Below are positions 22,761 through 53,422 of a DNA stretch of 64,000 nt, one piece after another. Every line of letters begins with the position of its first letter. Within the stretch, counting starts at the first letter, position 1. The position numbers and the translations under genes are program-made. The notes beneath the pieces were generated by a model, which saw only the letters and a program-made list of their open reading frames with translations, made no database searches and was not told the origin of the DNA. Where the stretch lies: positions 1 through 64,000 of the forward strand of contig WHVA01000128.1 in the NCBI GenBank assembly GCA_015179125.1. The letters run 5' to 3'. The stretch is from Gautieria morchelliformis (Eukaryota; Basidiomycota; Agaricomycetes; Gomphales; Gomphaceae).

Positions 22761-23279
22761 CTTATGCTTCATCACCAAGAATGTACGTTCCGCCCTTGAG
22801 GCAGGCGTATACTCTAGGTCATTCATATATACCTCAATCTGCATCGACTCATGTAGTCTTTCAAAGCGGCATTTTCTAGATTCTCAAAGACACGTTTCCA
22901 GAGCCTTGATCGATGTCCTGGCATGCAACGCCAGATCGCGGCTACTACATTCTGGTCTTGAATATTCGTTACCAGTCCTTCATATAAGTGAAGGGAGCGA
23001 TATGGGTTGGGCTGAAACTATCGCAGTCATATTAGCTGCTCTCTGGATTGGTTCTGAAGAATCAAGATTGAAGCGAACTTGTCCCCACTGGCATGAGTAG
23101 CGACAACACTAGTACGCGCTACGAATATGTTTATACATCGTTTTTACCATTTCTTGAATCACTCAACTACACTCAACATATATGTTGGACGCTATCTCAG
23201 CTTGAAGCGTCCGAGTTGCGGCCGCGGGCTGAGTTCGGTGCCATCATACTTGTTATATTTATATCAGGTTACACATTAT

Positions 23280-23397
23280 AAAATAATCAATAAAGGCGAT
23301 GGATGGCATGCTCTTATTCTGCTGCCAGAAGCCAGCAGCCCAATTACTCATCACTCTACACGCAATATGATCCTGGTGTACGACTACGTGTCACGGT
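23280..23397 (+). repeat. ~115 bp direct repeat, copy upstream of TOF1
   Basis: It begins AAAATAATCAATAAAGGCG, continues through TTCTGCTGCCAGAAGCC and ends near GTACGACTACGTGTCAC. It is repeated in the same orientation at 29024-29136. The two copies bracket TOF1 plus the UbiA 3' fragment. Confidence 0.85.
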
Positions 23398-23473
23398 GTG
23401 ACGGACACGCCACGCGTCGTCACAGCTCTACCAAGCCCCACAACCTTGCTAGTTGCTCAAGGTAATCCACGAC

Positions 23474-26400
23474 ATGGCCTCAGAGGATGAACTATCGCAA
23501 TCACATTCGCGTGGAGAATCTCCCGCGATATCCCGTCGTGCAATCCTAACGCGCGCAATTACTTCGGTTATAACTGCTTTGGGCGGCCTCAAGGGCGGAA
23601 CGTACATCCTTGGTGATGAAGCATACGGGTGTCTCAAGGACTTGAAGAAGTTCTGGCGTAAGGACGACACAGATGATGAACGTACCGTAGCTCGTATAAT
23701 GTGGAAGGCCCGTGTTTTGGAAAATGACATCGTACCCATCCTCCTCGAAACAGCAGGAAAAGGAAGAGTGGAGGATAGGTGCGCAATACTCTGCGCAGAG
23801 CTTGTGACGTCAATGACTTGGCCCATTGACGTGGCATCCGAGTTGAGGGAGCTCGACGATGAGCTTGATGTTGGGACAGATTACACGACTCTCCTCAGCT
23901 CTCATCTGAGCTATAAGGCTGCATTGCTCCAACCTGGAGTCATTCAAGCTCTTTTTGGAGTTATGCTTCCTCCGTTAGCAAAGACTAGGAAGGAAAGGAA
24001 GGATAGAGACGGTCAAATAATCAATATTGTCCTACATCTTTTTCGAAATCTGGCCTTCATTCGGGATCTGCCTTCGAATACACATCTTAGCGCAGATCAG
24101 GCCGAGCACTCCGGTCTGCAAGTACGTGTGCTGGTTTTCGTCCCAGGTTTTTTTTTTAGACGCTGACCTTGTTCTCAGAGCAAACTGATAATGACACTTT
24201 CTGAAAATCACATCTTAGACGCTTTGGTAACGTTGGCTACTAACGCCGAGAACGACCCCCTATTCACAAGTTGGAATACACTTCTACTCGAAACTTTATA
24301 TCTCCTCCTGAGGGGCGTGAAACCTTCGTCACTGGTTTTAAACCAAGTTCAGGTATGATGCTAGATGGCAGACCACATACGTTGCTCAATATATCTTGTA
24401 TTATTGCCAGGCTCCCAAAGACGACCTTGTGAGACTCCTTGACTTCGAGGCGGAACGGAAACGAACTATTCAACGAAACGCAGCCTCCCGCCACAGCAGA
24501 TTTGGAACAACCATATCTGTCAAAGCGGGCCAGGAGTCGATGATTCTGCATACCCAATATGCTATTAAGAAGGAAGCCCGGGATATTGTTGATGGCACGA
24601 AGAAGGGGAAGTATCTGAAGGCTAAAACTCTCGTGAGTCGCAGAAAAATTGTGCATATGACACATCTGTTATACCGTCTGTACATAGGACGAGTTGGGCG
24701 GACAAGACAACTTGAGTCCGTATGCACTGACTGTGCTACAAGGTTTCGCCCGGGAATTTATCTTGTCTTGCTTCAATTGTGTGTCCTTTTATTACACTTT
24801 GTTTCTTTCCTAGAAGTAACTTTGCAATAGCGTTTTTGGGATCCTTGCTCAAGGACATAAAGTCGGAGCGTCCGAAGATAACGGAGAAGGACAACTTACG
24901 CCTTCTTTTCGTGACCAAGTGGTTCCTCGAGTTCTTCATGGCTGCGCTCGCCAAGGACAGTGGTGTGGGCACCGGTTGGGGTTGGGGCTTCGAACTGGTG
25001 GCCGAAGTGGTCGACAGAGGATGGATCGTCTGGATTCTACGCCGAATGAGAGGTGCGATCGAGGAAAAGGTAGGGCGAGTGCTCTAGGCGATGTATGCGC
25101 TGACAGTTTCATTGTACCATAGCCCAAGCAGTGGACAGAACTGCAAGCTGGGATCGAGTGCCTGACTCAGCTACTACTGCTCATCGACAGCATGTCGCTT
25201 GTCTCAGAGCCTACGCTTTCTGAGGCGGCAGAAATTTTGCAGCATCAGTTATACTATAACGGCGAAGTGCTCGACCTTGCATTCGAAGGACTTCAAGGCT
25301 ACAAAGAGCAGAGCATAGCGTAAGTGTGTTTGGTCACCGTGAGATCCGCATTAACGGAAATCGCATTGTATAGCTACCTCGATTCCTCGATCCAGCTAGC
25401 TTATGTGCTTTTGCGGATGCTAGAGAAGTGGGGTAAGCAGAAGGGGGATGTTTATGTCCGGCGACGACGTATGCGAGCAAAGAACAGAGGCAGGGGAAAG
25501 GGAGGCAGAGGTTTATCTTTTGATCGGCATGCATCCATGCGGGTTCTAATATCGTATGTCTAGGCAAAGGCGTCCCAGAAGAAGAGGGCGTTTTGGATGT
25601 AGCCGATGTGGATGACGAGGTGGCCGCGGAAGACGAGCGTATAATCGAAGAGCAAATGTTCACCTTCGATAAATTTGAAGCTGTACGTCTTTTGCATCCC
25701 CTTAACTTCCAACTATTGGTTGATGTTGGCCATCACAACAGAAATTCGCCAACGAGGATATTACCCATACCCTTCTTGTCTACCTTGCTCGATTTAAGGA
25801 GTTATCTGCTGAGAATGTGAAGCGAGTGGTCAGCTTGTTGCATCGCCAAGCCGTCAAGGCTAAAGCTGAGGGTCTTTTCTTTAAAGTACGTGCTGTGGTC
25901 AATAGCTGCAGATCTGATCAACATCGCATACAGGTTTCCACCCTCGATCTGTTCAGGTCCATCCTAGCGGAGCAGAAGTCATTGCCGCGGACTCAGCCTT
26001 ATAAAGATCTTGTTCAGCTCATCAATTTCATACTTAGACAATTCTTCAAGGCGGCCGAGAAGGAACCCTTTCTGCTTGTGGAGGTCGGTCTCATGAGCAC
26101 ATGTCTATATCCACGGGCTTACTCAAGGTCCACAGGCTTTCTTTCCTAAAAATCGTGGCCAGTGGAAAAACTTCTCCAGCTGGGAACCCAAAACGCACGA
26201 CAAGCAAGCCGACAGGGTGCCTGATTCGGTACGTTGACCATACAAAACTGATATTTGACGTAACATTTATATCACGGCGGGGTTACAGACATGGAAGCAT
26301 CCGCAAGATGTGCAAGTGAAGAAAGGCTACTCGTGGAGCGAGCAGCTTGGAATCGCTGTCGGATGTCTTGTTGAGAATGATCAGCGAAATCTTGTCGAGT

Positions 26401-27863
26401 GGATCAAAGAGGTAGATAGTTTCGCAGCGTACCTTTAGCTTGTTACTTATCTCACACCTTCGCATAGATACTAGCGACTGTTGTCGGTATCAGACAACGC
26501 ATCGTGGAGGAGACGGATGGACCAGATAAGAACAAGGATTCTGACTCTGAAGAAATCAACGAGGATGAACAAATCCGTCTGGAGGCCGGGAAACTTAAAG
26601 GACCGTCAAGTGATGCAATAGCGAAATTTGAGGACTATCGTGAGTACTTTCCCACCTTTCTAAGTCAATGCTGATGGGATCGTGCAAGTGATTCCGTATG
26701 TGAGCGATGAACAAGCTGATGCTGCGACGAAAAATCCCCCATTCAAACTTGTTTGCCGTTTGATAAAATTCTGCCTCCTTGACGACAGTGAGCAATATTT
26801 TTATTCTCCTTGAATAACAACCATGCTGAGATTTATGCGAGACGCGGATGAGTTGGAGTGGTATGTGCCTGCAGCCATCCTCCCCTCGGACCTGCAAATC
26901 TCGTTCAATCTAATAAACCAATTCCTGGAAAAGCCGTTGGATCTCGAGGGCACAAAGGCAGCCCAGTTGCTTCGTAAGAAGACTCGTCGTCGAGCCAGGC
27001 GTCGGGAGCCATCTAGTGAGGCAGAAAGCGATGCGGAGGACGAGGACGTGCCTAAGCGCAAGGCAAGGAGGAAGAAAGAGGAAGTGCACTATAAGTCAGC
27101 TCAGTTCATTGAAGACAGTGATGCCGAGCTTGGCGACGATGAAGAGTTTTTTCAAAGAGAGGCTGCTTTGAGGGCGAGGACGGCCCTGGCTGCTGCTGAG
27201 GGTAGAAGTGCCAATATGAAGTCGACTGGCACGAAGAAAAGAAAGACGAGAAAAGAAGCGGAGGGACGGGGACAGAAGAAACGGAGGGGCGGCGTTCCAT
27301 CGTCTGGCAATGCTATGCAGGAAGTCGTCGACAGCGATGCGGACGACTACGCGAATGACTTGTCGCGCTCAGAACAGAGGTAGAGTACCCCGGGGACAAC
27401 GCCTCCCGAGGACTCAGCTCGAACCCGGCGGTCACGACCGCGTCCACAGCCCAACTTCGAGCGATTAAATTCGCCAGATGTGCAGGCCCCACGGAACGAT
27501 GACGAAGAAGAAATTGAGGCTACTGAGGCGCATCTGAGATCCAGGCCTATTTTTGGAGGATCCTCGCCTGTAGAGAGACCGCAGGAGGACCCGTCCGACG
27601 AGGAAATGGGAGGCCGATTGGGCAGGCGGAAGACCACAAAGATTGTAATTTTATCAGACGGGAGGACGAATGATAAGACGTTTTCTGATGCCATTATCTT
27701 GAGCTCTGTGATCAACGTGGCCATCTTTCATCAACAGGTGATCCGCATCTCAATTGAATATGATCAGCAATTAATTGTCAGGAAGTGTGGGGTGGTGCCA
27801 ATAGACAGGGATTCAAGCAAAGACCCGGGGATCAATGCTAAAGAGGTCGAGTTCGCCCCTTGA
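23474..27863 (+). CDS. TOF1: Timeless/Tof1/Swi1 fork-protection protein, left copy
   Basis: Tof1, with Csm3 and Mrc1, stabilises stalled replication forks and supports the S-phase checkpoint in the nucleus. The first exon contains the Timeless N domain: ITALGGL, CLKDLKKFWRKDD, TDDERTVARI, LLETAGKGRVEDRCAI, MTWPIDVASEL, QPGVIQALFGVMLPPLAK. Later exons (about 13 in all) carry RLLDFEAERKRTIQRNA, FFMAALAKDSGVGTG, the acidic middle part, and a lysine/acid-rich tail with RRKTTKIVILSDG. The ATG at 23474 is the first in the domain frame. An in-frame TAG at 27382-27384 separates the main body from the last ~160 codons unless removed by splicing; the right copy has the same TAG. Confidence 0.93.
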
Positions 27864-28703
27864 AATTGTAGTCAATATATTGCCAGTGAGCCTCTGCTTG
27901 ACCGACTCAGGGCACTCTCCTTGATGATATCTTCCCTCCTTTGTTTGCCCTCCTCCTCGCCTCTCGTGCTCTATCTTCCTGACGCCGATGCTCAAATGAC
28001 CAGCTACTAGCGCGTCGATTGACGCTCTGCTAAAGGTCGACGGCCCTGGATCGATCTGACAGCAATAGATCATAGCGCGTGGAGGTGCAACTGGTGCCTT
28101 GGCACAGCCTGGTCCTTGAGGGAACAGCGAACGATATCGCACATGTATCCGAGAAAAAAAAAAAAAAAGGATTCAACAAAGCAGACTAAAGAAGAAAAGA
28201 CGAGGAACTTCATGTTGACGTTAACGCTCATATCACTGCAACCGTCAAAGCAGTGAGGCATGACATATCTGCTCTTCCGTTGCATTGATCATCGTCAAGA
28301 GTGGACTACTAGTATATATCAAGGGATAGCGTCCTCTCACGCGTTTTTCTTGCGGCCAGATGCTTGAGGCTAGTCGATTGATTAATTCTAATGAACTACC
28401 TCATTTGAGCATTGTTTCATGGATTATTGATACTTTGTTATTGTAAACACCAATGTTTTCCTTAGAGACTTACAAAGCTGTATATTTCGTATCAATAAAC
28501 AATCATGCACGCCAGATAGCATCCCATCATTCGTCGATCCTCTGACCTGTGTTGTGATGTGCGCTAGGGGGATGGGCCGCCTTGCTTGGAAAGGTCCTCT
28601 AAATATTCTTGGGAGTGTTAAATATCAACTTCAAGGCCACCCGCCATTCAAATAGATGTCCATCGGTATAGGGAAGGGGATCCGAGGCGATTCAAGTATA
28701 ACA

Positions 28704-29023
28704 TCAAAAGGAAAGGACATCCCAGCGGGCTTGAGAAGGCAATAGGTGTGCCATAAAAAGCCACGCCTAATGAAATGTGAAATAAGAATGTGAGGATAGG
28801 CGAAAATATGACACCGCAACCTACGTTGAAGAGCACGTAGTACTGGCTGTCTTGCTCTGATTTCCTGAGATTGTAATACCTCAAACCGATCAACGTGCCA
28901 AGGAAGCAGAAACATGTTTTCCCCCATAACCCAAGTGACCAATGTGTACTGAGAAAAATGGACCAAGTTACCAGCGCAACGAGGGTAAATATGCACGAAA
29001 ACGAAGGGGCATAGATGGGGAAT
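28704..29023 (-). pseudogene. UbiA prenyltransferase 3' fragment (left arm)
   Basis: The reverse complement matches the end of the intact UbiA gene from 21133 to its stop at 21452. The fragment starts abruptly at 29023, where the ~115 bp direct repeat begins, so it has no promoter or N-terminal half and cannot make the enzyme. Confidence 0.9.
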
Positions 29024-29136
29024 AAAATAATCAATAAAGGCGATGGATGGCATGCTATTATTCTGCTGCCAGAAGCCGCCAGGTCAATTACTTATCACTC
29101 CACACAGAACACTGGTGTACAACTACGTGTCACATG
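29024..29136 (+). repeat. ~115 bp direct repeat, copy at the UbiA' breakpoint
   Basis: Same repeat as 23280-23397. It abuts the UbiA' fragment exactly and is followed after about 22 bp by a copia-type LTR. Confidence 0.85.
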
Positions 29137-29158
29137 TAAGGATGCACACCAAAGTAAG

Positions 29159-29301
29159 TGTTGGGATGCGAGCAACGTCACGTCGGCATAATCTTGTGTC
29201 ACTCATTGCGTCAGGCCGAAATATCGTATATGTGTTAGAACCAATGTACATTTCCCCTCGCCTAGTTGTAACCCGCTACTATCTCGCTTGCTTTTCTAAC
29301 A
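29159..29301 (+). repeat. Copia-type LTR (143 bp)
   Basis: It begins TGTTGGGATGCGAG and ends TTTTCTAACA, giving TG...CA ends with a short inverted terminus. A diverged, right-truncated copy lies at 36802-36928. Because it lies inside the large arm it is repeated inverted at 46726-46868. Confidence 0.8.
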
Positions 29302-29639
29302 CAACTACGCACCCCCTTGCCCTGTGGAGGCCGAAGTCGACACTAGAAAATCGCGCCTACCGAAAGTGCGCTTAGTCATTGAAAGCCATGCCTACCGAAA
29401 CCATGCACCCTTGTTGAGCCTACCGAAAGCTCAAATTATTGGCAATCATGCCAGAGACTTAGTTTGAGAAGCTGAATGAAAAGAATTATGTGGATTGGTG
29501 TTATATGATAGAGGCCCTGCTCATTGAGAAGGACCTTTGGGATTTGTTGATGGGACCGATGTGGCTTGCTGGAGGGACACAAGTCAAAATCAACTGGGTC
29601 AGTGCTTGGCTTTGTCCACACTGGCTAACACCGAGTCTA

Positions 29640-30459
29640 TTTTCGATCATCGCCCATGTAGTATACTGTCCGTTCGGTTGTTATTGATATTGAAGCCACT
29701 CGCCGTCGTTGATTCTCGATAAGCCTACGACTTCATCACTCAGGAAGGAATTGTCTTTTAAAGATGACACTATGGCTTTCTCATCTCTGGCAGCCAGGAG
29801 GTGAGTTATACAAATCTCCACTCGCTGTTACTTCCAAAAAAAAAAAAAAAGCTTTTTAGTAATGTGAATTTATAGGATTGGAACTAATTTTCTACGTGTA
29901 CAGGTCCGCACATGTGACCACACACGCTGTCTCAGCTCTTAGCGCGTACACGGAGCCTGCCCGTCACGGTGGAGCACACTCACACAGGCACGTCGAACGG
30001 CGTGCGTGGGACAGACAGTAGTAGCTGCAGGGCGTTCACTGCGCTCATTCCCACAGCTTCAATGTCAATGCATGTCCGGATGATGACCATTCACGGGATC
30101 AGCGCTGATGGGATAGTATGAGCAGCTCTGATGCACTCTTGATCACAATCGAGAGCAAGAGTGTTGTAAATCACATGTAGGTTGGCCACCACCCCCGGCA
30201 CTCCCGCCTTCATTAGCACACACGATGCTGGACGACAACACCCTCCTTGCCACTCACGGATGCCACCACCCCCCATGCCATTGTTGCGCGGTGCACTGGG
30301 ACAAGACTTGCCCCCTCGAACCGTCGTTCTGTCTCTGCCACAATTTTCCATGTTTATTGTCTTGTGAGCCAAACTGAGTTTCAATGTTCCACTCCACATT
30401 CTAACACTACAAATTATAGCACAAATACCTCTTTCCCCACATCCATCATTCCTCTAACC
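29640..30459. other. Non-coding stretch before the alpha-kinase gene
   Basis: It includes a poly-A run near 29837-29851 and a CCACC-rich segment near 30240-30280. There is no supported gene. The left border of whatever carried the kinase and integrase genes should lie here, but I found no terminal repeat. Confidence 0.4.
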
Positions 30460-33400
30460 ATGTCAGCAAGTGCTCCAGACAATTCTTGTTGTGCCACTGA
30501 TGTCCCCGGCGAGGGCTGTGGTAAGATATTCAGTCGAAAGACCGCGGCCGGACTTTGTGCTCGGTGTCATCACCTGACAAAGGTCGCAGATGATGCACTC
30601 GAACACGGGAGATTTGTAGTATGTATTTGTTTGCTGTCATCATTGTGCCACTTATAACATAACATAGCAAATCCTGCAATGTGGTGACTGTGGGCTCACA
30701 TTCAAGAATACAGGGGTGCGTTGTGGTGCTTGCAAGAAGTTAGTGAGTGAAGTTTCCAGGCCTGGGGAGTCTACCACTTAAGGGTAGCTTCAGCTTTTGC
30801 AGAGGATCAGGAATTAGGACGTGTGGATCAAATACTCATCGACAAACATCATGACCGTGCGATGGCCTTCAAGGCTCGACTGAGTCAAAATGGTTCACAG
30901 CCGCATCCTGCATCCCATCCACTCTCCCAGGTCAATAACCAGCCGACAATAAGCCTGACCACCGAATCCATCACTGCTGCTAAGCAAGCGGCTGGTCTGG
31001 CCCGTGAGGCTCATCTTATGGTTTGTATCAACGTGCGCACCAGAGGCAAGATTTCAAGTGCCTTTGGCTCGACTGTTCAGGCATATCCTGAATTGGTTAC
31101 TATGGCTGGTGGGTTCCTATCTTCTGCTTATTATACAAACTGACAACTGTACAGACAGAAATTCATGCAGATGTCATTGCGAGTGTCAATCGGACATGGG
31201 TCAAAACCCATGATTACAGTTTACAGTGGTGAGTGCTGAAACATCCTTCCCTTTCATAATAGACATCAGACCACACCTGTAGCGAGGATTCAGAACTACA
31301 TGTCAAGATTGGTTTTTAGGTGTTAATATCGTGTATTAGTGAACACAGTGAATGCCCAAGTAACTTGTGCAAAGAGGTATGCTGTTCGGCAAATAAGGTG
31401 AACCAATAAATGTTCAGAAGGTAAGAGGGCTGCCCGAACGGAGCTCACCCTATCTACAGTCGTAGCAAAATAGCCCATGGCACTCAACGATATAATGTGC
31501 GAGGTGTCACAAAAAGGTTGTCTAAGTAGCAACAATCCTTTCACTGGCGAAGGCACTCCTTCGGAGTCCTTCGCCGACAGCACAGAGAATAGTTCGAAGG
31601 CTAAGGTAACGAAGGTGAAGTACGAAAACTCACCAGTGGTGCTCAAGTCTTCCTCTGGTCAAAGATAGGAATCTACAGGAGAGGGCTCAAGATGGTGATC
31701 ACAGTGAGGTCAAGTTTGTACAAGCTAGACGTATGATAATTGAACTGAGGAATATACATGCGAATGTAAACTACTTATATTGAATGCTCATATGGTAACA
31801 GCGAATAGGAAAGAGGCCGTCGTGCGTCAGGGTTGGATAGGGGTGCGCAGTCATGATACAAATAGATGAAATAAACATACAATAGAATGGAAGAGGAGTG
31901 CAAACATGAAACAATGGAGAGGAAGGGGGGTGAAGGCACCTATGTACAAAAACACACCTTGGGACCTGCATATACACCACCCTGCATGGACTCTTCTTCT
32001 GCGCTGGGTTGATCCCACACGACCTACGGGTAGGACATCCTGCGAATGCATCCCGGCCATATGAACGCCTAAAGGGGTTGCATTGGGAAGATGATGGGGC
32101 CAGTGATGGACCATCACACCGGGTAGAGGATGTCAATCGCATTTGATGGTGTGCCTGCTGGCAAATGATGCGAGCAGCAAATGGTTGTTCGGTGAATGCG
32201 GTGAAGGGCGAACAGAGAGAACATAGAGGAGGCGTGGTCGAAGGGAGGGGTGAAGCCGAGTGAACAGGGAGGAGGAGTGGTGAAAGGGGAAACAGGGATA
32301 GCTGGGTGCAGGAAATACATGAGTCGTGACAATCCAATCATAGGAACATTGAAAGGGGGTTGGGCAGAGGAGGTGATAGGGCCAGTGATGAACCACCAAG
32401 CCGGTCCAAGACATTGATCGCCCTTTGATGGTGTGGCTATGGCGCTTGACACGAACAGCGAAGATCGATCGCTGAACCCGGCGAAGGGCGAACGGAGCGA
32501 ACATAGAGGTGGGGCAAGGAATGGGAGGACAGAGCGACTAGGTATAGGAAATAAGCACGTCATGACACTACAATGGCATGGTAACAGGCCGCCGGAGGAG
32601 GCAACAGAGGTCATGGCGCTTGGGGAGTTCTATCAATCCCACCAGGTCCTTCCACATGCCAATGTCTACCTGGACAACATACCAAAACAACACAACAAAA
32701 TCAAAGGCAAATGTGTTTGCCTCAAATTATGGATTAATGAAGAAGGGGTACGCTATTTTATTGTTTCACCATTGTGTCTTTAGCAAGCTTATTGTTACAT
32801 AAGTGGGAGGCATGGATAGATCATGACTTAAGCCTTCATAAAGGTATGGGCAAAAAGAGAGGCAGTTCCTCAGGGGACAGTGACCATGCCAAGTGGCCAT
32901 GTGGTATGGTAGAGTCTTTGGTATGAGGGGCTGCCTCATGTGTGCATAGTTTCAGGACCCATGGAATCATCTTTCGTGTTCTCAAAGTGGCCCTCAGTAA
33001 TGTTCTCTGAGCCAAAGGATAAGATTCAACTCCAGTTTGCAAAAACTCGTGTGGTTGAGCAAACTGGCAAAGTAGAGGTTCAGTGGAAAGTAGGGGAGGT
33101 TCATGTTGAGGGGGAGATATGTCGAACGCCTCTTGGGCAGGGAAAGAGTAAACATGTTTATGCGGTATGTGATGTGCAACTTGCCTGATCTCTTGACTAA
33201 TATACTGATGTATAGCTAACAATTGGGGAGATGGCTTACGTGGCAAAGCATTTCTTCAACATTGGCAAAGGTGAAGGGATAGTGACAGTTGATGAGAACG
33301 CATCGCAACTCGAAGCTGAGATATGGCGTGTGAAAAGAGGGCAATGGTTCTGGAAATGGTTCAAGGAGACAGCTCACCGCCACCATCGTGAAATAGCAAC

Positions 33401-33966
33401 AGGTGATATGATCAACCAGATGCACGTTCTTCTCCACGTACTCACATTGACTAGATATACAGTTCGTTGAAGCCATACTAGCTCAGGAGGACCTCAGACA
33501 TGGATCTGAACCATCCGTAGCATCCCACACATCCTCAAAGTGTGTTGAGGACTCTGACTGCCGGGCAATCTATTGGCTCCTTGAGGAACAGCGCACACTT
33601 GTAGTCAACAACTACAGCTACACGCTCAGTCACCTATCAGCATTCACACATTTTACATGGATGCATAGTCAGAACACCCTTCTGTTTGCAGACATGCAAG
33701 GTGCATGCACTGTATGCAATTGCTCTTAAGCCCTCATTTGTGACCATCTTATCAAGGCTCCCCGGCCCGTGGCTCAGATGGGCAGCCTGTTGAGATCTTG
33801 TTCGACCCAATGACTCATTCACCTACCGAGTGCGTGATTGGTGTTTCCTTTCCTAATTGACTTCAGATTAAATATCAATAGAGACACCGGACTTGGAGAC
33901 TATGATCAGCAGGGCATTGATGCTTTTATTTCCCAGCACCGTTGCAACAAGATCTGTGAAAAATGA
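30460..33966 (+). CDS. Alpha-type (MHCK/EF2K) protein kinase, multi-exon
   Basis: The N-terminal part has a cysteine-rich segment: CGKIFSRKTAAGLCARCHH, then LQCGDCGLTFKNTG and RCGACKK after an intron, probably zinc-binding. The kinase part is in the last exons: SSFVFSKWPSVMFSEP (32965), MAYVAKHFFNIGKGEG (33231), WFKETAHRHHREIA, YWLLEEQRT (33570), LSHLSAFTHFTW, LFADMQ (33685), GQPVEILFDPMTHSPT and GLGDYDQQGIDAF (33890). HxCNKIC at the end matches the Zn-coordinating C-terminus of alpha-kinases. A 1.3 kb stretch (31225-32600) between N-terminal and kinase exons has no clear coding and holds direct repeats. It may be transcribed as a long intron, or the gene may be damaged. The gene lies within the copia relic. 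Confidence 0.75.
32090..32610 (+). repeat. Diverged tandem duplication (~265 bp units) within the kinase gene
   Basis: 32098-32340 and 32375-32600 share ordered blocks: GGGCCAGTGATG, TTTGATGGTGTG, GAAGGGCGAAC, GAACATAGAGG, and a closing stretch with GAAATA followed by CATGAC. Identity is imperfect. No open frame is preserved between units. Confidence 0.7.
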
Positions 33967-34339
33967 TGCTAGAGTCACTTAGCTCCAAAGACAATGAGGA
34001 AGACATGGACCTCTCCAACAGCGAGTCTTGATGTATTTTGACTTTGCTATTACAGTTAGAATACTGGAAGCTTCTTCCCTGGTGGTTTTTTAATGCCCTA
34101 GTATTCTGTTATATAGTTGTTTCATGTTGGTAATTTTCAAATAGACACAACTTCTGATATATCGAGTGTTAGGCAAGTGACAAGCATGCCACCTTATGTA
34201 ATGATGTCTTTGCTTTCATCTTCTGTTGTCTCAACCTTCTCACTCAATGCCTGGTCACAACGAGGCAGGAAAGAATGGTGTTGATAATGGCACATGTCAG
34301 GAAACTATCTCATAAGCATCATGTCATTCTAAATAAATG
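33967..34339. other. Short intergenic gap between kinase and integrase-type gene
   Basis: No supported feature. Both neighbours read on the plus strand. Confidence 0.4.
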
Positions 34340-35850: not shown

Positions 35851-36189
35851 TACTTCAATACAGTATAACTAGCTACCATTAGATACAAGAACGAACACGC
35901 TATATAGCTATTCGCACTTGTAACACATCGCGAGAGATTGACTACATATTTGAAAAGTTATACCTCAGTCACTCCGCCAGAGTCCTGATCCCATTCATGC
36001 ATGATTAGGGCCATACCATACCTCATTGTGGTTGCTGTCTGACAATGTCGACGCTGTCGCACTTAGCTGTAGTAGTGGCGTAGGTACATACCAGTCACAG
36101 CTGAGTAACAGTCCAGAGGTAAGCACAATAGTGGACCAACCCAGTTGTTTTTGACCGTGTCCTTCCAGCAGACCTCAGACCGAGCACCA
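35851..36189. other. Non-coding stretch after the integrase-type gene
   Basis: No supported feature. The right border of the kinase/integrase module against copia gag sequence falls here. Confidence 0.4.
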
Positions 36190-36928: not shown

Positions 36929-36930
36929 CG

Positions 36931-38351: not shown

Positions 38352-38395
38352 GTATTTTCAGACTGCTTACACCCTACGTATCCCTTTTTTTCACA

Positions 38396-39628: not shown

Positions 39629-39802
39629 GTAGCAACCTCGGAACCACACGATCCGAGGATTGCGGTAACCTCACCCGTGTGCTCAGGCTCAGCGCCGCTT
39701 CTCATTCATTGTCCAAAGATTCCCTTGATGTAGATCTAACCTCGCCTTCGCTTCCCAACGTCGCTTTTGTTGCATTAGTTGACTGCGGGTCTTCTGATTG
39801 TT

Positions 39803-40287: not shown

Positions 40288-40328
40288 CTGATTGTTTTAT
40301 TGAATCCAGATTTGTCCAGAAGTACTCT

Positions 40329-43300: not shown

Positions 43301-43831
43301 CTCGAGGCTCAGAAAACCTACCAAGCCTCGGCCGATGTTCGTCGCAAGCCCGCTCCTGATTTCCAAGTAGGATCCCTCACCTTTGTAAAGGCACAGTACT
43401 TCCGAACAACTCGGCCTACCAAGAAGCTCGCCGAGAAGTTCTTGGGTCCTTTTGAGATCATTTCCCGAGCGGGTACTCACTCCTTCACCCTTCGACTTCC
43501 AGAACACATGCATTCAGTCCATCCAGTATTCCACCTATCTATGCTCGAACCAGCCTCGCCCAACACCATCCCAAACCGAGTTCAGCCGCCTCCGCCCCCA
43601 GTCATTATCGACGGCGAACCCGAGTTTGAGGTTTCCGAAATCCTCAACTCGAAGATCGATAATAGACGCAAAAGCTGCAAATTACTCTATCTTGTTAGGT
43701 GGACTGGTTACGAAGGTACCGACGAAGAAACCTCATGGATCCTCGCTTCCGAGCTTGATCATGCCTCGGAGCTGGTCACTGACTTCCACGAATCTTACCC
43801 GGGCAAGCCGGGCCCCTTGACTGCTCTATGA
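40329..43831 (+). mobile_element. Chromovirus pol: protease end, RT, RNase H, integrase, chromodomain
   Basis: The retropepsin tail (VVLGHNWLTRYNPSIDW) is near 40490. RT (VRKKDGSLRLCVDFRGLNK, MPFGLTNGPAAFQRFMN) and RNase H (ETDASDYALAAIL, HDKELLAIFEAF, VTDHKNLKYF) occupy 41028-42230. The integrase has an HHCC finger near 42535-42665 (TCTTCMRSKPQRHK), a core with MDFIEQLPPS and SDRGSEFVSHFW, then NQTLEQYLR. The chromodomain (YLVRWTGYEGTDEETSW) closes at 43690-43740. Clade: chromovirus by the chromodomain. Broken in several places. Confidence 0.95.
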
Positions 43832-43944
43832 TCGTTTCTTTTGTTAACCCCCATGACCCCAGTAGTTAGATAACAAAATCCCCTCGCAATCGAACAACAA
43901 AAATCAACAAAATCCAAGAAAATTCTATTATTCCATTTACTAGT

Positions 43945-44880
43945 TTATTCCACCATCCTCATATCCTCTCCCTCGCTCTCCTCGCTACCCTCGCCTGACT
44001 CCTCCTCATTACTACTACTACTTCGCTCCACCAGACCCCCATGTCCCCCATGATCTGCCAAGTCCCTCGCCCCCTGCATCCGCTTCAAATAATTCCGCCT
44101 CCTCCTTATCCTCATGAACTCCATATCCGCCCTGTTCATCCTGTCATTCGCAGCCCTAAACTCCCCCAGCAACTCGCACACCCTCTCCCCAACCTCGCCA
44201 ACTTTCTGTCCCACATCCCTCACAGCCGCTATCAACTCCCTCATCTCTGCACTCCGCTCCGATCTTTTCGTCTTCTTGTCCTTCTTTGCCCTCCGACCTT
44301 CCACCTCGGTTTCCTCCACCTCGGTTCCCTTCCCCTCATTCTGCCTCGCCCCTTCTGTTCCCTTTCCCTTCCCCTCGCTCAGCCTCGCTTCCATCCTCTC
44401 CACCCTCGTCTCGAGGTTACGCTCGACCCAATCGCTCGAGTCGTTGTCATCATCATCCACCTCGTCTCGAACCTTGGCCCCTTTCCTCGGCCTCGGTTCA
44501 CCCTCGGCCTCCTCGCTTCTTGCTCGCTGCACCCGCCTGACCTTTCCCTGGGGTCGCCTTGCTGCGGTGACCTTGGGCGATGCTACAGCCCAAGGAACGG
44601 GTCCTGCACCACACGCAGGCACCCTGGTTGGCGAGGCCGAAGTCGAGACTAACGGCCCGAAGGCACGTATAGTCACGCTCTTCGCAGCGCGCGCACCTCG
44701 CCTCGGCCTTGGTCGCGAGCTGCCACTCGCGAGGTCCCCCGTCGGCGAGCTTGTACCCGTATAAGGACAAGTCGGTCGGGTGATAAGAAAACAACATGCG
44801 TTTATACTAGACAAATCAGCAGAGCCCATGACTAGACAACTACGGTACTCACCTTCTTTCCACTCGGTCCCTCCTGCCAC
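43945..44880 (-). mobile_element. Antisense 311-codon ORF within the chromovirus
   Basis: A long open frame on the strand opposite to pol, lying between the chromodomain and the right LTR. It is rich in charged residues: a basic middle (RRPQGKVRRVQRARSEE), an acidic run (EVDDDDNDSSDW), Lys/Arg stretches (RRAKKDKKTKRSERS), a heptad-like helix and an acidic C-terminus (SEESEGEDMRM). In an overlapping minus-strand frame (about 44590-44710) there are paired CxxC-x6-C cysteine groups (CARCEERDYTC, CVWCRTRSLGC). Whether either frame is expressed is unknown. Its length without stops and its placement recall antisense ORFs predicted in other Agaricomycete gypsy elements. Confidence 0.55.
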
Positions 44881-45231
44881 GGCTGCCGCATGTCAATGGC
44901 GCCCCTGTCATCGATTGGCACTACGCCAACCTCGGGTCAATCCTCGGGCATAACCTCGCCCGAGGCTCCGTTCTCCTCAGACAACAAAGTCTGGTCGAAC
45001 GCGTTGTTCGCGCTGTTCTCGTCAACGGCTGAATTAAAGAGGGGTTGCGGGCGCACCATATTCGTTGGCACTTGGGTTCGCTGCCTCCTACCCACCCTTT
45101 TATCTAACCTCGGCTACGATTTAAGCTTCGCCTTTCCGGCTACTTAACATCGGGCCGGGATCTAGATTCGAGGGTAGGCGAACCTTGTTCACATTACGGC
45201 CTCAAGGGTCTCGGCCATAAGGGGGGAATAC

Positions 45232-45796
45232 TGTAAGGACCCGGCCTTTGGCCGGTTACTTACCGGTAGAACCTTTTTCCGAGCCCGAGCCTTGTGATAT
45301 TTGTGCCCAAGTACATATGATACTTATCCGCGCCTGAGCCCGAGCCCGAGCTTGAACTCATATCCGACCTTGATCCCATGCCCGTATCCCCTTAGTTACT
45401 GGTTCCGCTCCATCACACATCATTCGTATATTACCTCGCCCTGACCTCGCCCTGACCTTCACTAATATGTTCGCCCCTGACTCGCACCTCGTCCGTATAT
45501 AACCCCCTTGTATGCATTCCTACTCCTCAGTCTGAAAATCAACTATCGTATCCCTTCGATCCCTAGCTAGTTTCTAAGCTTCGCCTCTTAAGCCAAGCTT
45601 CGCCTCTTAAGCCAAACTTCGCCTCTTATTCGTCTGCCTCCGAAGTTGGGACTCGTGCGTAGGGTCGGCGCAGCACATAAGCTGAAGCCAAGTCCCTCTC
45701 CGACTTCCCGATCCAAACCCCGCCCCGTAACCTCGGACCTTGCCTCGGGTTTCGTTCCCGACCTCGGCCAACCCTACGACGGATCGTATCGTAACA
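45232..45796 (+). repeat. Chromovirus 3' LTR (565 bp)
   Basis: Starts TGTAAGGACCCGGCC just after the polypurine tract and ends CGTAACA. Confidence 0.95.
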
Positions 45797-46528
45797 GCCG
45801 GCTCCATTCGAGTCAGCACATGCTGACATCCCGGACAGGTGGCAGTCTGACATGTCGGTCTGGGATGACTACGACTCAGATCGGCCCCACTGTGTTTCCA
45901 AACGGAAATGCAGAAAACCTCTCCACCACCAGTCCCAGACAACAGACTGGCAGAAGAGCTAGAATGTGTCAAGAACACATATCTAGCAGAATCATCGATG
46001 TATTGTCGCAGAGGTCTAGTACGAGAACCCTGGCTAGACGACTTCAGCAGGGGCTGAGAGGTCGTCGTACAAGCGTAGGCTACTTATACTACAGAGCCCG
46101 TTGTGTTATGACGATAAGAAACGGAATGAAGGGATGAGAGACATGGATGGAGCAAGTAGCATATGATGGTTGACACATGGAAACAAGACGACATGAAGGG
46201 GATTGGGCATGGGTCAAGTATCACTGGATTCACAACACCACGCACAGCGCCGACGACCCCAGGCTACACCAAGCGCTAGCCACCGTCCAGGCCCAATACA
46301 TAGGGCCCCACATTGTGCTGCCACCACCCGGAGTGGAAGTTGTACACCGCTACCCAGGGGAAGGGGAGCAGTTGAGACACGGAGATCCTCGATCTCCGTG
46401 ACGGGCTGCGTGCCGCAGCCCCTTGGCTTGCCAAGTGGCACCATGTCTGTCTGATATCCAAGGCGAGGTTTCAAGACCTCCTCATGCACGCCAAGGAGAC
46501 CCCAGCTGACCAGTGCACGCCAGAAATG
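45797..46528 (+). other. Right half of the unidentified ORF and spacer to the inverted-repeat arm
   Basis: Sequence after the chromovirus includes SAHADIPDRWQSDMSVWDDY near 45810-45865 and DWAWVKYHWIHNTTHSAD near 46200-46255, both plausible protein segments of the ORF broken by the chromovirus. The family is not recognised. The stretch to 46528 is unique to this side of the inverted repeat. Confidence 0.4.
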
Positions 46529-46725
46529 CCAATCCACATAATTCTTTTCATTCAGCTTCTCAAACTAAGTCTCTGGCATGATTGCCAATAATTTGAGCTT
46601 TCGGTAGGCTCAACAAGGGTGCATGGTTTCGGTAGGCATGGCTTTCAATGACTAAGCGCACTTTCGGTAGGCGCGATTTTCTAGTGTCGACTTCGGCCTC
46701 CACAGGGCAAGGGGGTGCGTAGTTG

Positions 46726-46868
46726 TGTTAGAAAAGCAAGCGAGATAGTAGCGGGTTACAACTAGGCGAGGGGAAATGTACATTGGTTCTAACACATATA
46801 CGATATTTCGGCCTGACGCAATGAGTGACACAAGATTATGCCGACGTGACGTTGCTCGCATCCCAACA
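46726..46868 (-). repeat. Copia-type LTR, right-arm copy
   Basis: Inverted copy of 29159-29301, carried along with the arm. No gag beyond the first few dozen bases is present on this side. Confidence 0.8.
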
Positions 46869-47003
46869 CTTACTTTGGTGTGCATCCTTACATGTGACAC
46901 GTAGTTGTACACCAGTGTTCTGTGTGGAGTGATAAGTAATTGACCTGGCGGCTTCTGGCAGCAGAATAATAGCATGCCATCCATCGCCTTTATTGATTAT
47001 TTT

Positions 47004-47323
47004 ATTCCCCATCTATGCCCCTTCGTTTTCGTGCATATTTACCCTCGTTGCGCTGGTAACTTGGTCCATTTTTCTCAGTACACATTGGTCACTTGGGTTA
47101 TGGGGGAAAACATGTTTCTGCTTCCTTGGCACGTTGATCGGTTTGAGGTATTACAATCTCAGGAAATCAGAGCAAGACAGCCAGTACTACGTGCTCTTCA
47201 ACGTAGGTTGCGGTGTCATATTTTCGCCTATCCTCACATTCTTATTTCACATTTCATTAGGCGTGGCTTTTTATGGCACACCTATTGCCTTCTCAAGCCC
47301 GCTGGGATGTCCTTTCCTTTTGA
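47004..47323 (+). pseudogene. UbiA prenyltransferase 3' fragment (right arm)
   Basis: Same fragment as at 28704-29023, now on the plus strand and converging on TOF1. It lacks the N-terminal half including the first Asp-rich motif. Confidence 0.9.
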
Positions 47324-48162
47324 TGTTATACTTGAATCGCCTCGGATCCCCTTCCCTATACCGATGGACATCTATTTGAATGGCGGGTGGCCTTGAAGTT
47401 GATATTTAACACTCCCAAGAATATTTAGAGGACCTTTCCAAGCAAGGCGGCCCATCCCCCTAGCGCACATCACAACACAGGTCAGAGGATCGACGAATGA
47501 TGGGATGCTATCTGGCGTGCATGATTGTTTATTGATACGAAATATACAGCTTTGTAAGTCTCTAAGGAAAACATTGGTGTTTACAATAACAAAGTATCAA
47601 TAATCCATGAAACAATGCTCAAATGAGGTAGTTCATTAGAATTAATCAATCGACTAGCCTCAAGCATCTGGCCGCAAGAAAAACGCGTGAGAGGACGCTA
47701 TCCCTTGATATATACTAGTAGTCCACTCTTGACGATGATCAATGCAACGGAAGAGCAGATATGTCATGCCTCACTGCTTTGACGGTTGCAGTGATATGAG
47801 CGTTAACGTCAACATGAAGTTCCTCGTCTTTTCTTCTTTAGTCTGCTTTGTTGAATCCTTTTTTTTTTTTTTCTCGGATACATGTGCGATATCGTTCGCT
47901 GTTCCCTCAAGGACCAGGCTGTGCCAAGGCACCAGTTGCACCTCCACGCGCTATGATCTATTGCTGTCAGATCGATCCAGGGCCGTCGACCTTTAGCAGA
48001 GCGTCAATCGACGCGCTAGTAGCTGGTCATTTGAGCATCGGCGTCAGGAAGATAGAGCACGAGAGGCGAGGAGGAGGGCAAACAAAGGAGGGAAGATATC
48101 ATCAAGGAGAGTGCCCTGAGTCGGTCAAGCAGAGGCTCACTGGCAATATATTGACTACAATT

Positions 48163-51100
48163 TCAAGGGGCGAACTCGACCTCTTTAGCATTGATCCCCG
48201 GGTCTTTGCTTGAATCCCTGTCTATTGGCACCACCCCACACTTCCTGACAATTAATTGCTGATCATATTCAATTGAGATGCGGATCACCTGTTGATGAAA
48301 GATGGCCACGTTGATCACAGAGCTCAAGATAATGGCATCAGAAAACGTCTTATCATTCGTCCTCCCGTCTGATAAAATTACAATCTTTGTGGTCTTCCGC
48401 CTGCCCAATCGGCCTCCCATTTCCTCGTCGGACGGGTCCTCCTGCGGTCTCTCTACAGGCGAGGATCCTCCAAAAATAGGCCTGGATCTCAGATGCGCCT
48501 CAGTAGCCTCAATTTCTTCTTCGTCATCGTTCCGTGGGGCCTGCACATCTGGCGAATTTAATCGCTCGAAGTTGGGCTGTGGACGCGGTCGTGACCGCCG
48601 GGTTCGAGCTGAGTCCTCGGGAGGCGTTGTCCCCGGGGTACTCTACCTCTGTTCTGAGCGCGACAAGTCATTCGCGTAGTCGTCCGCATCGCTGTCGACG
48701 ACTTCCTGCATAGCATTGCCAGACGATGGAACGCCGCCCCTCCGTTTCTTCTGTCCCCGTCCCTCCGCTTCTTTTCTCGTCTTTCTTTTCTTCGTGCCAG
48801 TCGACTTCATATTGGCACTTCTACCCTCAGCAGCAGCCAGGGCCGTCCTCGCCCTCAAAGCAGCCTCTCTTTGAAAAAACTCTTCATCGTCGCCAAGCTC
48901 GGCATCACTGTCTTCAATGAACTGAGCTGACTTATAGTGCACTTCCTCTTTCTTCCTCCTTGCCTTGCGCTTAGGCACGTCCTCGTCCTCCGCATCGCTT
49001 TCTGCCTCACTAGATGGCTCCCGACGCCTGGCTCGACGACGAGTCTTCTTACGAAGCAACTGGGCTGCCTTTGTGCCCTCGAGATCCAACGGCTTTTCCA
49101 GGAATTGGTTTATTAGATTGAACGAGATTTGCAGGTCCGAGGGGAGGATGGCTGCAGGCACATACCACTCCAACTCATCCGCGTCTCGCATAAATCTCAG
49201 CATGGTTGTTATTCAAGGAGAATAAAAATATTGCTCACTGTCGTCAAGGAGGCAGAATTTTATCAAACGGCAAACAAGTTTGAATGGGGGATTTTTCGTC
49301 GCAGCATCAGCTTGTTCATCGCTCACATACGGAATCACTTGCACGATCCCATCAGCATTGACTTAGAAAGGTGGGAAAGTACTCACGATAGTCCTCAAAT
49401 TTCGCTATTGCATCACTTGACGGTCCTTTAAGTTTCCCGGCCTCCAGACGGATTTGTTCATCCTCGTTGATTTCTTCAGAGTCAGAATCCTTGTTCTTAT
49501 CTGGTCCATCCGTCTCCTCCACGATGCGTTGTCTGATACCGACAACAGTCGCTAGTATCTATGCGAAGGTGTGAGATAAGTAACAAGCTAAAGGTACGCT
49601 GCGAAACTATCTACCTCTTTGATCCACTCGACAAGATTTCGCTGATCATTCTCAACAAGACATCCGACAGCGATTCCAAGCTGCTCGCTCCACGAGTAGC
49701 CTTTCTTCACTTGCACATCTTGCGGATGCTTCCATGTCTGTAACCCCGCCGTGATATAAATGTTACGTCAAATATCAGTTTTGTATGGTCAACGTACCGA
49801 ATCAGGCACCCTGTCGGCTTGCTTGTCGTGCGTTTTGGGTTCCCAGCTGGAGAAGTTTTTCCACTGGCCACGATTTTTAGGAAAGAAAGCCTGTGGACCT
49901 TGAGTAAGCCCGTGGATATAGACATGTGCTCATGAGACCGACCTCCACAAGCAGAAAGGGTTCCTTCTCGGCCGCCTTGAAGAATTGTCTAAGTATGAAA
50001 TTGATGAGCTGAACAAGATCTTTATAAGGCTGAGTCCGCGGCAATGACTTCTGCTCCGCTAGGATGGACCTGAACAGATCGAGGGTGGAAACCTGTATGC
50101 GATGTTGATCAGATCTGCAGCTATTGACCACAGCACGTACTTTAAAGAAAAGACCCTCAGCTTTAGCCTTGACGGCTTGGCGATGCAACAAGCTGACCAC
50201 TCGCTTCACATTCTCAGCAGATAACTCCTTAAATCGAGCAAGGTAGACAAGAAGGGTATGGGTAATATCCTCGTTGGCGAATTTCTGTTGTGATGGCCAA
50301 CATCAACCAATAGTTGGAAGTTAAGGGGATGCAAAAGACGTACAGATTCAAATTTATCGAAGGTGAACATTTGCTCTTCGATTATACGCTCGTCTTCCGC
50401 GGCCACCTCGTCATCCACATCGGCTACATCCAAAACGCCCTCTTCTTCTGGGACGCCTTTGCCTAGACATACGATATTAGAACCCGCATGGATGCATGCC
50501 GATCAAAAGATAAACCTCTGCCTCCCTTTCCCCTGCCTCTGTTCTTTGCTCGCATACGTCGTCGCCGGACATAAACATCCCCCTTCTGCTTACCCCACTT
50601 CTCTAGCATCCGCAAAAGCACATAAGCTAGCTGGATCGAGGAATCGAGGTAGCTATACAATGCGATTTCCGTTAATGCGGATCTCACGGTGACCAAACAC
50701 ACTTACGCTATGCTCTGCTCTTTGTAGCCTTGAAGTCCTTCGAATGCAAGGTCGAGCACTTCGCCGTTATAGTATAACTGATGCTGCAAAATTTCTGCCG
50801 CCTCAGAAAGCGTAGGCTCTGAGACAAGCGACATGCTGTCGATGAGCAGTAGTAGCTGAGTCAGGCACTCGATCCCAGCTTGCAGTTCTGTCCACTGCTT
50901 GGGCTATGGTACAATGAAACTGTCAGCGCATACATCGCCTAGAGCACTCGCCCTACCTTCTCCTCGATCGCACCTCTCATTCGGCGTAGAATCCAGACGA
51001 TCCATCCTCTGTCGACCACTTCGGCCACCAGTTCGAAGCCCCAACCCCAACCGGTGCCCACACCACTGTCCTTGGCGAGCGCAGCCATGAAGAACTCGAG

Positions 51101-52552
51101 GAACCACTTGGTCACGAAAAGAAGACGTAAGTTGTCCTTCTCCGTTATCTTCGGACGCTCCGACTTTATGTCCTTGAGCAAGGATCCCAAAAACGCTATT
51201 GCAAAGTTACTTCTAGGAAAGAAACAAAGTGTAATAAAAGGACACACAATTGAAGCAAGACAAGATAAATTCCCGGGCGAAACCTTGTAGCACAGTCAGT
51301 GCATACGGACTCAAGTTGTCTTGTCCGCCCAACTCGTCCTATGTACAGACGGTATAACAGATGTGTCATATCCACAATTTTTCTGCGACTCACGAGAGTT
51401 TTAGCCTTCAGATACTTCCCCTTCTTCGTGCCATCAACAATATCCCGGGCTTCCTTCTTAATAGCATATTGGGTATGCAGAATCATCGACTCCTGGCCCG
51501 CTTTGACAGATATGGTTGTTCCAAATCTGCTGTGGCGGGAGGCTGCGTTTCGTTGAATAGTTCGTTTCCGTTCCGCCTCGAAGTCAAGGAGTCTCACAAG
51601 GTCGTCTTTGGGAGCCTGGCAATAATACAAGATATATTGAGCAACGTATGTGGTCTGCCATCTAGCATCATACCTGAACTTGGTTTAAAACCAGTGACGA
51701 AGGTTTCACGCCCCTCAGGAGGAGATATAAAGTTTCGAGTAGAAGTGTATTCCAACTTGTGAATAGGGGGTCGTTCTCGGCGTTGGTAGCCAACGTTACC
51801 AAAGTGTCTAAGATGTGATTTTCAGAAAGTGTCATTATCAGTTTGCTCTGAGAACAAGGTCAGCGTCTAAAAAAAAAACCTGGGACGAAAACCAGCACAC
51901 GTACTTGCAGACCGGAGTGCTCGGCCTGATCTGCGCTAAGATGTGTATTCGAAGGCAGATCCCGAATGAAGGCCAGATTTCGAAAAAGATGTAGGACAAT
52001 ATTGATTATTTGACCGTCTCTATCCTTCCTTTCCTTCCTAGTCTTTGCTAACGGAGGAAGCATAACTCCAAAAAGAGCTTGAATGACTCCAGGTTGGAGC
52101 AATGCAGCCTTATAGCTCAGATGAGAGCTGAGGAGAGTCGTGTAATCTGTCCCAACATCAAGCTCATCGTCGAGCTCCCTCAACTCGGATGCCACGTCAA
52201 TGGGCCAAGTCATTGACGTCACAAGCTCTGCGCAGAGTATTGCGCACCTATCCTCCACTCTTCCTTTTCCTGCTGTTTCGAGGAGGATGGGTACGATGTC
52301 ATTTTCCAAAACACGGGCCTTCCACATTATACGAGCTACGGTACGTTCATCGTCTGTGTCGTCCTTACGCCAGAACTTCTTCAAGTCCTTGAGACACCCG
52401 TATGCTTCATCACCAAGGATGTACGTTCCGCCCTTGAGGCCGCCCAAAGCAGTTATAACCGAAGTAATTGCGCGCGTTAGGATTGCACGACGGGATATCG
52501 CGGGAGATTTTCCACGCGAATGTGATTGCGATAGTTCATCCTCTGAGGCCAT
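48163..52552 (-). CDS. TOF1: Timeless/Tof1/Swi1 fork-protection protein, right copy
   Basis: Mirror of the left copy with the same exon layout and exactly equal length. Only a few substitutions are visible: Glu to Lys in the N-terminal RGxSPAI, Ala to Ser in FDKFExVRLL, and a change near the intron after KAKTL. The same in-frame TAG is present (minus strand, 48642-48644). Nothing in the sequence says which copy is expressed; both keep all recognisable domain motifs and splice sites. Confidence 0.93.
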
Positions 52553-53422
52553 GTCGTGGATTACCTTGAGCAACTAGCAAGGTTGTGGGGCTTGGTAGAG
52601 CTGTGACGACGCGTGGCGTGTCCGTCACACTGTGACACGTAGTCGTACACCAGGATTGCGTGTAGAGTGATGAGTAATTGGGCTGCTGGCTTCTGGCAGC
52701 AGAATAATAGCATGCCATCCATCGCCTTTATTGATTATTTTATAATGTGTAACCTGATATAAGTATAACAAGTATGATGGCACCGAGCTCAGCCCGCGGC
52801 CGCAACTCGGACGCTTCAAGCTGAGATGGCGTCCAACATATATGTTGAGTGTAGTTGAGTGATTCAAGAAATGGTGAAATCGATGTATAAACGTAATTGT
52901 AGAGCGTACTAGTGTTGTCGTTACTCATGCCAGTGGGGACAAGTTTGTTTCAATCTTCAGAACCAATCCAGAGAGTAGCTAATATGACTGCGATAGTTTC
53001 AGCCCAACCTATATCGCTCCCTTCACTTATATGAAGGACTGGTAACGAATATTCAAGACCAGAAAGTAGTAGCCGCGATCTGGCGTTGCATGCCAGGACG
53101 TCGATCAAGGCTCTGGAAACGTGTCTTTGAGAATCTAGAAAATGCCGCTTTGAAAGACTACATGAGTCGATGCAGATAGAGGTATATATGAATGACCTAG
53201 AGTATACGCGAGAGCAGCATGCATTCTTACGTCCTGCTACTGCAACAGCGGTCCCAACAGCGAGAAGGTGACAAGGTCAGAAATAAATGGACAACACATA
53301 ACCTTTATAAAATGATATCGCGCCAAGCAGGTAAGTAGCGGAGGATACCCAGGATGTATAAGAATACCCTTTCCAGACCTTGGCTCCTACCGTTCGACTT
53401 GAGTTCTCGGCTGCCGCCACCC

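Follow-up and report, generated by a model that had tools for sequence, protein, structure and literature searches.

Two intact copies of TOF1, which encodes one subunit of the fork-protection complex, lie in opposite orientation on a single contig of Gautieria morchelliformis, raising the question of how they arose and what has kept them alike. We analyzed the window, the whole stretch of 64,000 nucleotides of contig WHVA01000128.1 that surrounds them. We consider it probable that the locus, as read from the assembled sequence, is a real chromosomal amplification of the UbiA-TOF1 neighbourhood, formed as an inverted amplification by template switching and spread apart by transposons, with its intact copies kept alike by conversion.

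Self-BLAST and base-by-base alignment confirmed the near-identical inverted arms of the original prediction (Table 1). Arm 1 aligned with the reverse of arm 2 at 99.40% over 6694 columns, with 27 mismatches and 3 gaps; the indels comprise 7 nt (23057-23063), 5 nt (23365-23369) and 1 nt in a poly-A run at 28154. Three of the four predicted arm limits were exact, and the fourth, the end of arm 1, was placed one base too far, at 29499. An Rfam search of the window at gathering thresholds gave no match.

Table 1. Positions of the arms, genes, repeats and hairpins in the window.
Feature	Position	Strand	Basis or remarks
UbiA prenyltransferase gene, left flank	20557..21508	+	two overlapping frames
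Third-copy remnant: TOF1 3' flank and UbiA 3' end	21133..22181	- (strand of lost TOF1)	matches arm 1 27959-29023 reversed
Perfect hairpin	22437..22491	.	27-bp stem, 1-nt loop
Third-copy remnant: TOF1 exon 1 piece	22567..22802	-	arm 1 23586-23815 reversed, 75% with gaps
Fold-back in remnant exon 1	22710..22760	.	25-bp stem, 3 mismatches; 44 bp from arm 1
Arm 1 of inverted repeat	22805..29498	+	self-BLAST and base-by-base alignment
TOF1 5' flank block ahead of copy 1	23278..23394	+	arm 2: 52631-52743; self-comparison
TOF1 copy 1	23474..27863	+	16 exons, 1196 aa; hand-built model, Pfam TIMELESS, PDB matches
UbiA', truncated copy of UbiA 3' end, in arm 1	28648..29023	-	frame open to its stop
Second TOF1 5' flank block, abutting UbiA'	29022..29134	+	arm 2: 46893-47005
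Repeat, putative Copia-type LTR and leader/gag start	29158..29559	+	many genomic copies; Copia assignment by eye from frame
Spacer between arms	29499..46528	.	largely transposons and other dispersed repeats
Gypsy-type LTR retrotransposon	37788..45796	+	gag, reverse transcriptase, integrase, chromodomain
Arm 2 of inverted repeat	46529..53209	-	self-BLAST and base-by-base alignment
TOF1 copy 2	48163..52552	-	same 16 exons; all 15 introns GT..AG; 3 aa unlike copy 1
Hairpin	53423..53489	.	29-bp stem, 1 mismatch
Hairpin	53609..53663	.	27-bp stem, 1 mismatch
Hairpin	53756..53814	.	27-bp stem, 2 mismatches

Each arm carries a full-length TOF1 gene, as predicted, and both could be modelled as intact genes with open frames. 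The last intron of the copy 1 model (27327-27383) is uncertain; left unspliced, the frame stops after 1055 aa. Small introns and the general style of the genes give the impression of a mushroom-forming basidiomycete. The N-terminal TIMELESS domain is present (Pfam PF04821, E 3.2e-80, residues 43-311, profile positions 1-271 of 271), and the product matched yeast Tof1 (PDB 6skl, E 9.8e-34, best stretch 267-782) and human TIMELESS (7pfo, E 2.6e-33, 30-567). Between the arms the gene spans 4390 bp with no indel and 8 substitutions, in agreement with the predicted indel-free 4.39 kb with few changes. One substitution is intronic and seven are coding, four of these synonymous and three altering the protein (E15K, A231T, A615S). 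The two genes, behind diverged promoters, would yield Tof1 proteins three residues apart, and we infer that both copies are expressed. Their arrangement had been described as head-to-head; since the arm 1 copy lies on the plus strand and the arm 2 copy on the minus strand, the genes are convergent, tail to tail.

No further full-length TOF1 was found in the 122-Mb assembly (12/12 and 5/5 candidates scored). The only other piece of the gene is a 1.8-kb middle fragment with three stops, on contig C462. We rejected this fragment as the other allele of the locus, because the 20 kb around it share nothing with the window beyond the TOF1 piece and two segments belonging to the spacer repeats. Within one open-access library, we found no paper on Tof1 gene duplication in basidiomycetes or on Timeless/Tof1 paralogs in fungal genomes.

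The foremost rival to amplification, itself unlikely, is an artefact of assembly or haplotype, in which the alleles of two nuclei, or one copy, were joined in opposite orientation within a transposon cluster. The inner 3.8 kb of the arms is identical save one homopolymer base, so that an assembler could misjoin there, and the assembly from which the structure is read comes in 1113 contigs. However, no alignment was obtained between the outer flanks of the two arms, and the window contains no ambiguous N base. A single locus matched each of CSM3 (a family match, at C209) and MRC1, so the assembly looks like one haplotype. Searches for a second allelic copy of the unique flanks gave none among the 40 of 615 candidates scored and none in 33 of 34 in a further list, which is weak because it lacked the query's own place. 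Comparison with an outgroup copy was possible for 6 of the 27 substitutions: arm 1 is derived at 23313 and 23674 (and at 23395, where the alignment is ambiguous) and arm 2 at 24901, 25066 and 25680. Each arm has therefore changed on its own, which speaks against an artefactual copy, though alleles would show such changes too.

The differences between the arms of the amplification are strongly zoned: 19 of the 27 substitutions are crowded into the outermost 669 bp and the other 8 fall within the following 2207 bp, leaving the inner 3818 bp free of them. As predicted, the outer ~670 bp is the more diverged and contains 12 nt of net indels, the 7-nt and 5-nt indels given above. Outside TOF1, the 669 bp upstream contain 19 substitutions and the 1635 bp that run from the TOF1 stop to the inner end of the arm contain none (Fisher p = 4e-11), indicating that the zoning is not due to chance; for 27 uniformly placed changes, the chance of a difference-free run this long is at most 3.5e-9. 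Such zoning points to gene conversion between the arms, the inner neutral part being far more alike than the outer neutral part, as in concerted evolution. For this pattern the original prediction had named two alternatives, gene conversion and distinct events of unequal age, and the zone counts support that proposal. We infer that gene conversion homogenised the two intact copies; consensus polishing across near-identical copies could mimic its effect. Repeat-induced point mutation was considered and rejected: 8 of the 27 differences are transversions, and no one-arm C-to-T/G-to-A pattern was apparent by eye, a judgement that carries no statistic.

Next among the rivals, and improbable, is a recent simple inverted duplication without conversion, whose outer part would be older or derived from a separate event. 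Youth would account for the inner identity, but a single event should leave uniform neutral divergence, at odds with the differing ends outside TOF1, and a second breakpoint would be required near 23.4 kb, of which there is no sign.

Further evidence on the amplification comes from the left flank. Directly next to arm 1 lie the ruins of a third TOF1 on the minus strand (21133-22802), absent from the original prediction. The longer piece matches arm 1 at 89% with gaps counted, 45 of the 1022 aligned columns being mismatches, the exon 1 piece has stops inside the matched stretch, and shorter TOF1 pieces lie out of order at 22230-22446. The remnant pieces end 3 bp short of the outer end of arm 1, and the TOF1 start and 5' flank are missing from them. 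The frames of the left-flank UbiA gene jointly cover profile positions 9-244 of 250 (exons not modelled), and we take this gene as the ancestral convergent neighbour of TOF1. Its truncated copy UbiA', whose arm 2 counterpart lies at about 47004-47379, shows zero differences between the arms, yet together with the TOF1 3' flank it differs from the left-flank copy by the 45 mismatches above; the arms thus share a post-truncation history. The second 5' flank block set against UbiA' reads as a tandem-duplication junction. In order, the TOF1 copies are the remnant (minus), arm 1 (plus) and arm 2 (minus): the centre copy is inverted, only two are intact, and arm 2 and the remnant are in tandem orientation.

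Blocks of the 17-kb spacer were found again at many other genomic places. The LTRs of its Gypsy-type element are 97.9% identical, with GCTGG and GCCGG as the flanking 5 bp, and 3 of the 9 spacer frames scanned had Pfam matches (Gypsy-type gag, reverse transcriptase and integrase). This transposon make-up had not been part of the original prediction. The inner end of arm 1 falls inside the putative Copia-type repeat, the arm 2 copy of which occupies 46529-46869. That TOF1 is the cargo of a large transposon, with the arms as its terminal inverted repeats, would fit long inverted repeats around a transposon-rich centre but is highly improbable, as outside the Copia repeat the arms match only the local remnant and the C462 piece (40 of 73 candidates scored), no target-site duplication was visible by eye at the outer ends, and none of the nine spacer frames matched a DNA transposase, the three Pfam matches all being Gypsy-type.

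The outer edges of the arms hold hairpins, also absent from the original prediction. A strict search gave four near-perfect hairpins in the window, each no more than 605 bp from the outer end of an arm; control loci gave 0 in 40,000, 1 in 91,855 and 0 in 30,000 bases. These control loci were partly transposon-rich and not random, the 91,855-base set being 24 loci that include 4001 bases of the window itself (L001). With the fold-back included, the hairpins sit 44-605 bp outside the outer ends, and the amplification junctions themselves are not preserved. Their link to the amplification event is circumstantial, resting on their position just outside the arms, with three of the four in one cluster.

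Amplification of the UbiA-TOF1 neighbourhood would have left the three TOF1 copies, minus / plus / minus: a wreck beside UbiA, followed by the intact copies of arm 1 and arm 2. Replication template switching may have begun with a tandem step, joining the truncated UbiA' to a second TOF1 5' flank, and a next step would have laid down one copy in inverted orientation. Transposons would then have come to occupy the space between the arms. Gene conversion would have removed differences from the inner 3.8 kb and lowered their number in the 5' half of TOF1, sparing the promoters. A one-step inverted triplication leaves unexplained the 5' flank block and Copia start common to both arms, which calls for two or more steps or for secondary changes. 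Against this origin, the junction presumed to come from the first inversion has not survived, the out-of-order pieces are not predicted, and arm 1 extends into the Copia repeat by 61 bp more than arm 2 does, a difference that requires a subsequent loss or a spacer flip.

There is a slim chance that the locus is a natural fossil of template-switch inverted triplication whose cargo is a gene restraining fork instability: extra TOF1 dosage would have been selected (CSM3 and MRC1 are unduplicated), conversion would equalise the copies, promoters would diverge and the structure would feed back on its own stability. Until tested, we treat the presence of a fork-stalling structure around a fork-protection gene as coincidence. 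That this subunit of the complex is out of balance with its partners in copy number is a testable oddity. Known inverted triplications have mostly been seen soon after their origin, in yeast cultures and human patients, an impression drawn in part from PMC10766183. A decayed natural triplication with orderable layers (third copy, transposon insertions, conversion zones), if true, would allow two questions to be asked: how such structures age, and whether conversion can keep two genes identical with 17 kb of repeats between them.

The locus looks like a recognisable type of gene amplification and not a new system. Its genes resemble Tof1/Timeless in their Pfam TIMELESS domain and PDB matches to the yeast and human proteins, and differ in that TOF1 has two intact copies whereas CSM3, whose product works with Tof1 in a complex at forks, and MRC1 have one locus each. 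The palindromes of mammalian Y chromosomes are gene-converted inverted gene pairs. They share with this locus near-identical gene-bearing arms that are more alike in their inner part than in other neutral parts; unlike them, the TOF1 locus is one pair, its identity falls before the promoters, and its spacer is long and repeat-filled. In the yeast lineage, short inverted repeats are homogenised by template switching, according to PMC8604942; the near-perfect repeats at 22437-22491 and 53423-53814 are similar, but lie beside intact genes and not within them. Inverted triplication by template switching (ODIRA) is expected to have its junctions at short interrupted inverted repeats, with arms within about 100 bp, and a replication origin inside the amplified segment. 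PMC10766183 describes it at yeast SUL1, with repeats of 2-14 bp that mostly total 40-80 bp including the spacer, and its discussion notes that inverted arms can be moved further apart by secondary rearrangements. Here the stems are 25-29 bp with loops of 1-9 nt, the first copy is wrecked, the junctions are not preserved and the gap is 17 kb of repeats. The likeness to that system lies in three copies with the centre one inverted and in inverted repeats near the boundary.

The near-identical inverted repeat with two TOF1 genes described in the original prediction was recovered: 22805-29498 pairs with 53209-46529, with 27 substitutions and three indels (7, 5 and 1 nt). The two genes, previously called head-to-head, proved to be convergent. 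The window (64 kb, 49.5% G+C, without N) is the first part of a contig of 239,783 bases, in an assembly of 122 Mb and 1113 contigs. TOF1 in either arm has 16 exons and 15 introns, all GT..AG, and the two translations differ at 3/1196 residues; the last intron is a modelling choice, and if left unspliced the frame stops after 1055 residues. TOF1 matched Pfam TIMELESS (3.2e-80) and also solved structures of yeast Tof1 and human TIMELESS.

Searching the whole assembly with TOF1 protein identified the two arms, a remnant at 22561-22803 and pieces on another contig, C462 (12/12 candidates scored), while the arms were the sole matches in a TIMELESS family search. The C462 fragment retains introns and 93% identity across about 1.8 kb. 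Its codon differences comprise 41 non-synonymous changes, including three stops, and 32 synonymous ones, and it is a dead genomic copy.

Coordinates of TOF1 remnants and the flanking UbiA gene
Feature	Position	Details
TOF1 3′-region remnant	21133-22181	reverse match to 27959-29023, just left of arm 1
TOF1 exon 1 remnant	22567-22802	reverse match to 23586-23815
UbiA frames, overlapping	20557-21021 and 20849-21508	profile positions 9-124 and 106-244 of 250
TOF1 mid-gene fragment	C462, 82466-84280 (locus L024, 6467-8281); protein match 82542-84283	introns present, three stops

Between the two remnant stretches left of arm 1 lie small TOF1 pieces in scrambled order. The neighboring UbiA gene is a two-frame family match rather than an exon model. 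The arms contain only the UbiA 3′ end (29023 onward), identical between them and with its frame open up to the stop. Taken together, this 3′ end and the TOF1 3′ flank next to it differ from the left flank by 45 mismatches in 1022 aligned columns. In our reading, the left flank probably represents the original UbiA-TOF1 pair, whose copies in the arms were truncated inside UbiA. Right next to this truncation, the block of 113-117 bp found ahead of TOF1 occurs a second time (29022-29134 vs 23278-23394), which is how a tandem-duplication junction would look. Relative to the remnant, arm 2 is tandem and arm 1 inverted, so that the locus order is TOF1 remnant (-), TOF1 (+), TOF1 (-). Since both arms share an inner block (TOF1 5′ flank and Copia start), the tandem step and the Copia insertion would have come first and the inverted copy later.

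Most of 29551-37170 and of 45798-46528, in the spacer, consists of blocks that recur at many other sites of the assembly (one search scored 40 of 4733 candidates, the other 40 of 182); 37171-37787 had no match among the 40 of 4733 scored. Between these blocks lies a Gypsy-type element with gag, reverse transcriptase, integrase and chromodomain, LTRs 97.9% alike and flanks GCTGG and GCCGG. The LTRs have diverged slightly less (0.020) than the outer arm ends (0.029), and insertion after duplication would fit this, on small numbers. A Copia-type retrotransposon with long gag/pol frames occupies 772-4373 (-). Other features of the window are an Argonaute gene at 12341-15016 (ArgoN, ArgoL2 and Piwi above cut-off, PAZ and Mid below), whose first frame has 27-bp tandem repeats (12559-12772), and a tandem direct duplication (59895-61460 and 62045-63605, 90.9% identical over 1600 columns), four frames of which gave no Pfam match above curated cut-off and one sub-threshold RMP1.

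Substitutions between the arms are zoned, with 19 in 22805-23473, 8 in 23474-25680 and none in 25681-29498. Outer and inner arm ends, both outside TOF1, differ (p = 4e-11), as do the 5′ and 3′ halves of TOF1 (p = 0.008), and the 3818-bp substitution-free run has a probability of at most 3.5e-9 if placement is uniform. Outgroup pieces polarised 6/27 substitutions and not the other 21: arm 1 is derived at 23313, 23674 and, though alignment there is ambiguous, 23395, and arm 2 at 24901, 25066 and 25680. Conversion across the inner part, perhaps repeated, is the simplest account; assembly polishing errors could in principle produce a conversion-like pattern.

An assembly or haplotype artefact, conceivable for a structure known from assembled sequence, is an improbable explanation of the locus as a whole: the outer flanks of the arms fail to align with each other, derived changes are present in both arms, and CSM3 (PF07962; one matching place) and MRC1 (PF09444; two adjacent stretches) each occupy a single locus. 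Nor was a second allele of the unique flanks found among the candidates scored (40 of 615; 33 of 34, a negative weaker than it appears because the query's own place is missing from that list). We conclude that the inverted TOF1 structure is in all probability real and of an already known kind; the original observation stands, and is more informative than first seen.

Under strict settings, with stems of 16 bp or more and loops no longer than 30, the window had four hairpins, none farther than 605 bp from an outer arm end. The control loci contained none in 40,000 bases (four loci), none in a further 30,000 (five loci) and one in 91,855 (24 loci from repeat searches, some overlapping and one of them, L001, taken from the window itself); no hairpin appeared in either of two base-composition shuffles of the window. 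At a stem cut-off of 12 bp there were seven in the window, six of which lay no more than 1.4 kb from an outer end, and three in 70,000 control bases. The remnant exon holds one fold-back, 44 bp off arm 1. Since a looser, imperfect palindrome of roughly 400 bp (5134-5521, 80% alike) lies near a Copia-type element, away from the outer arm ends, the edge association is restricted to near-perfect hairpins. A local direct repeat (53368-53421 and 53645-53698, 87%) also lies among the right-edge hairpins.

Compared with the yeast template-switch inverted triplications, as described in PMC10766183, junctions at this locus are not preserved, so that it is not a proven case. In its -/+/- order and in the inverted repeats at its edges, the locus nevertheless resembles these triplications and may work like them.
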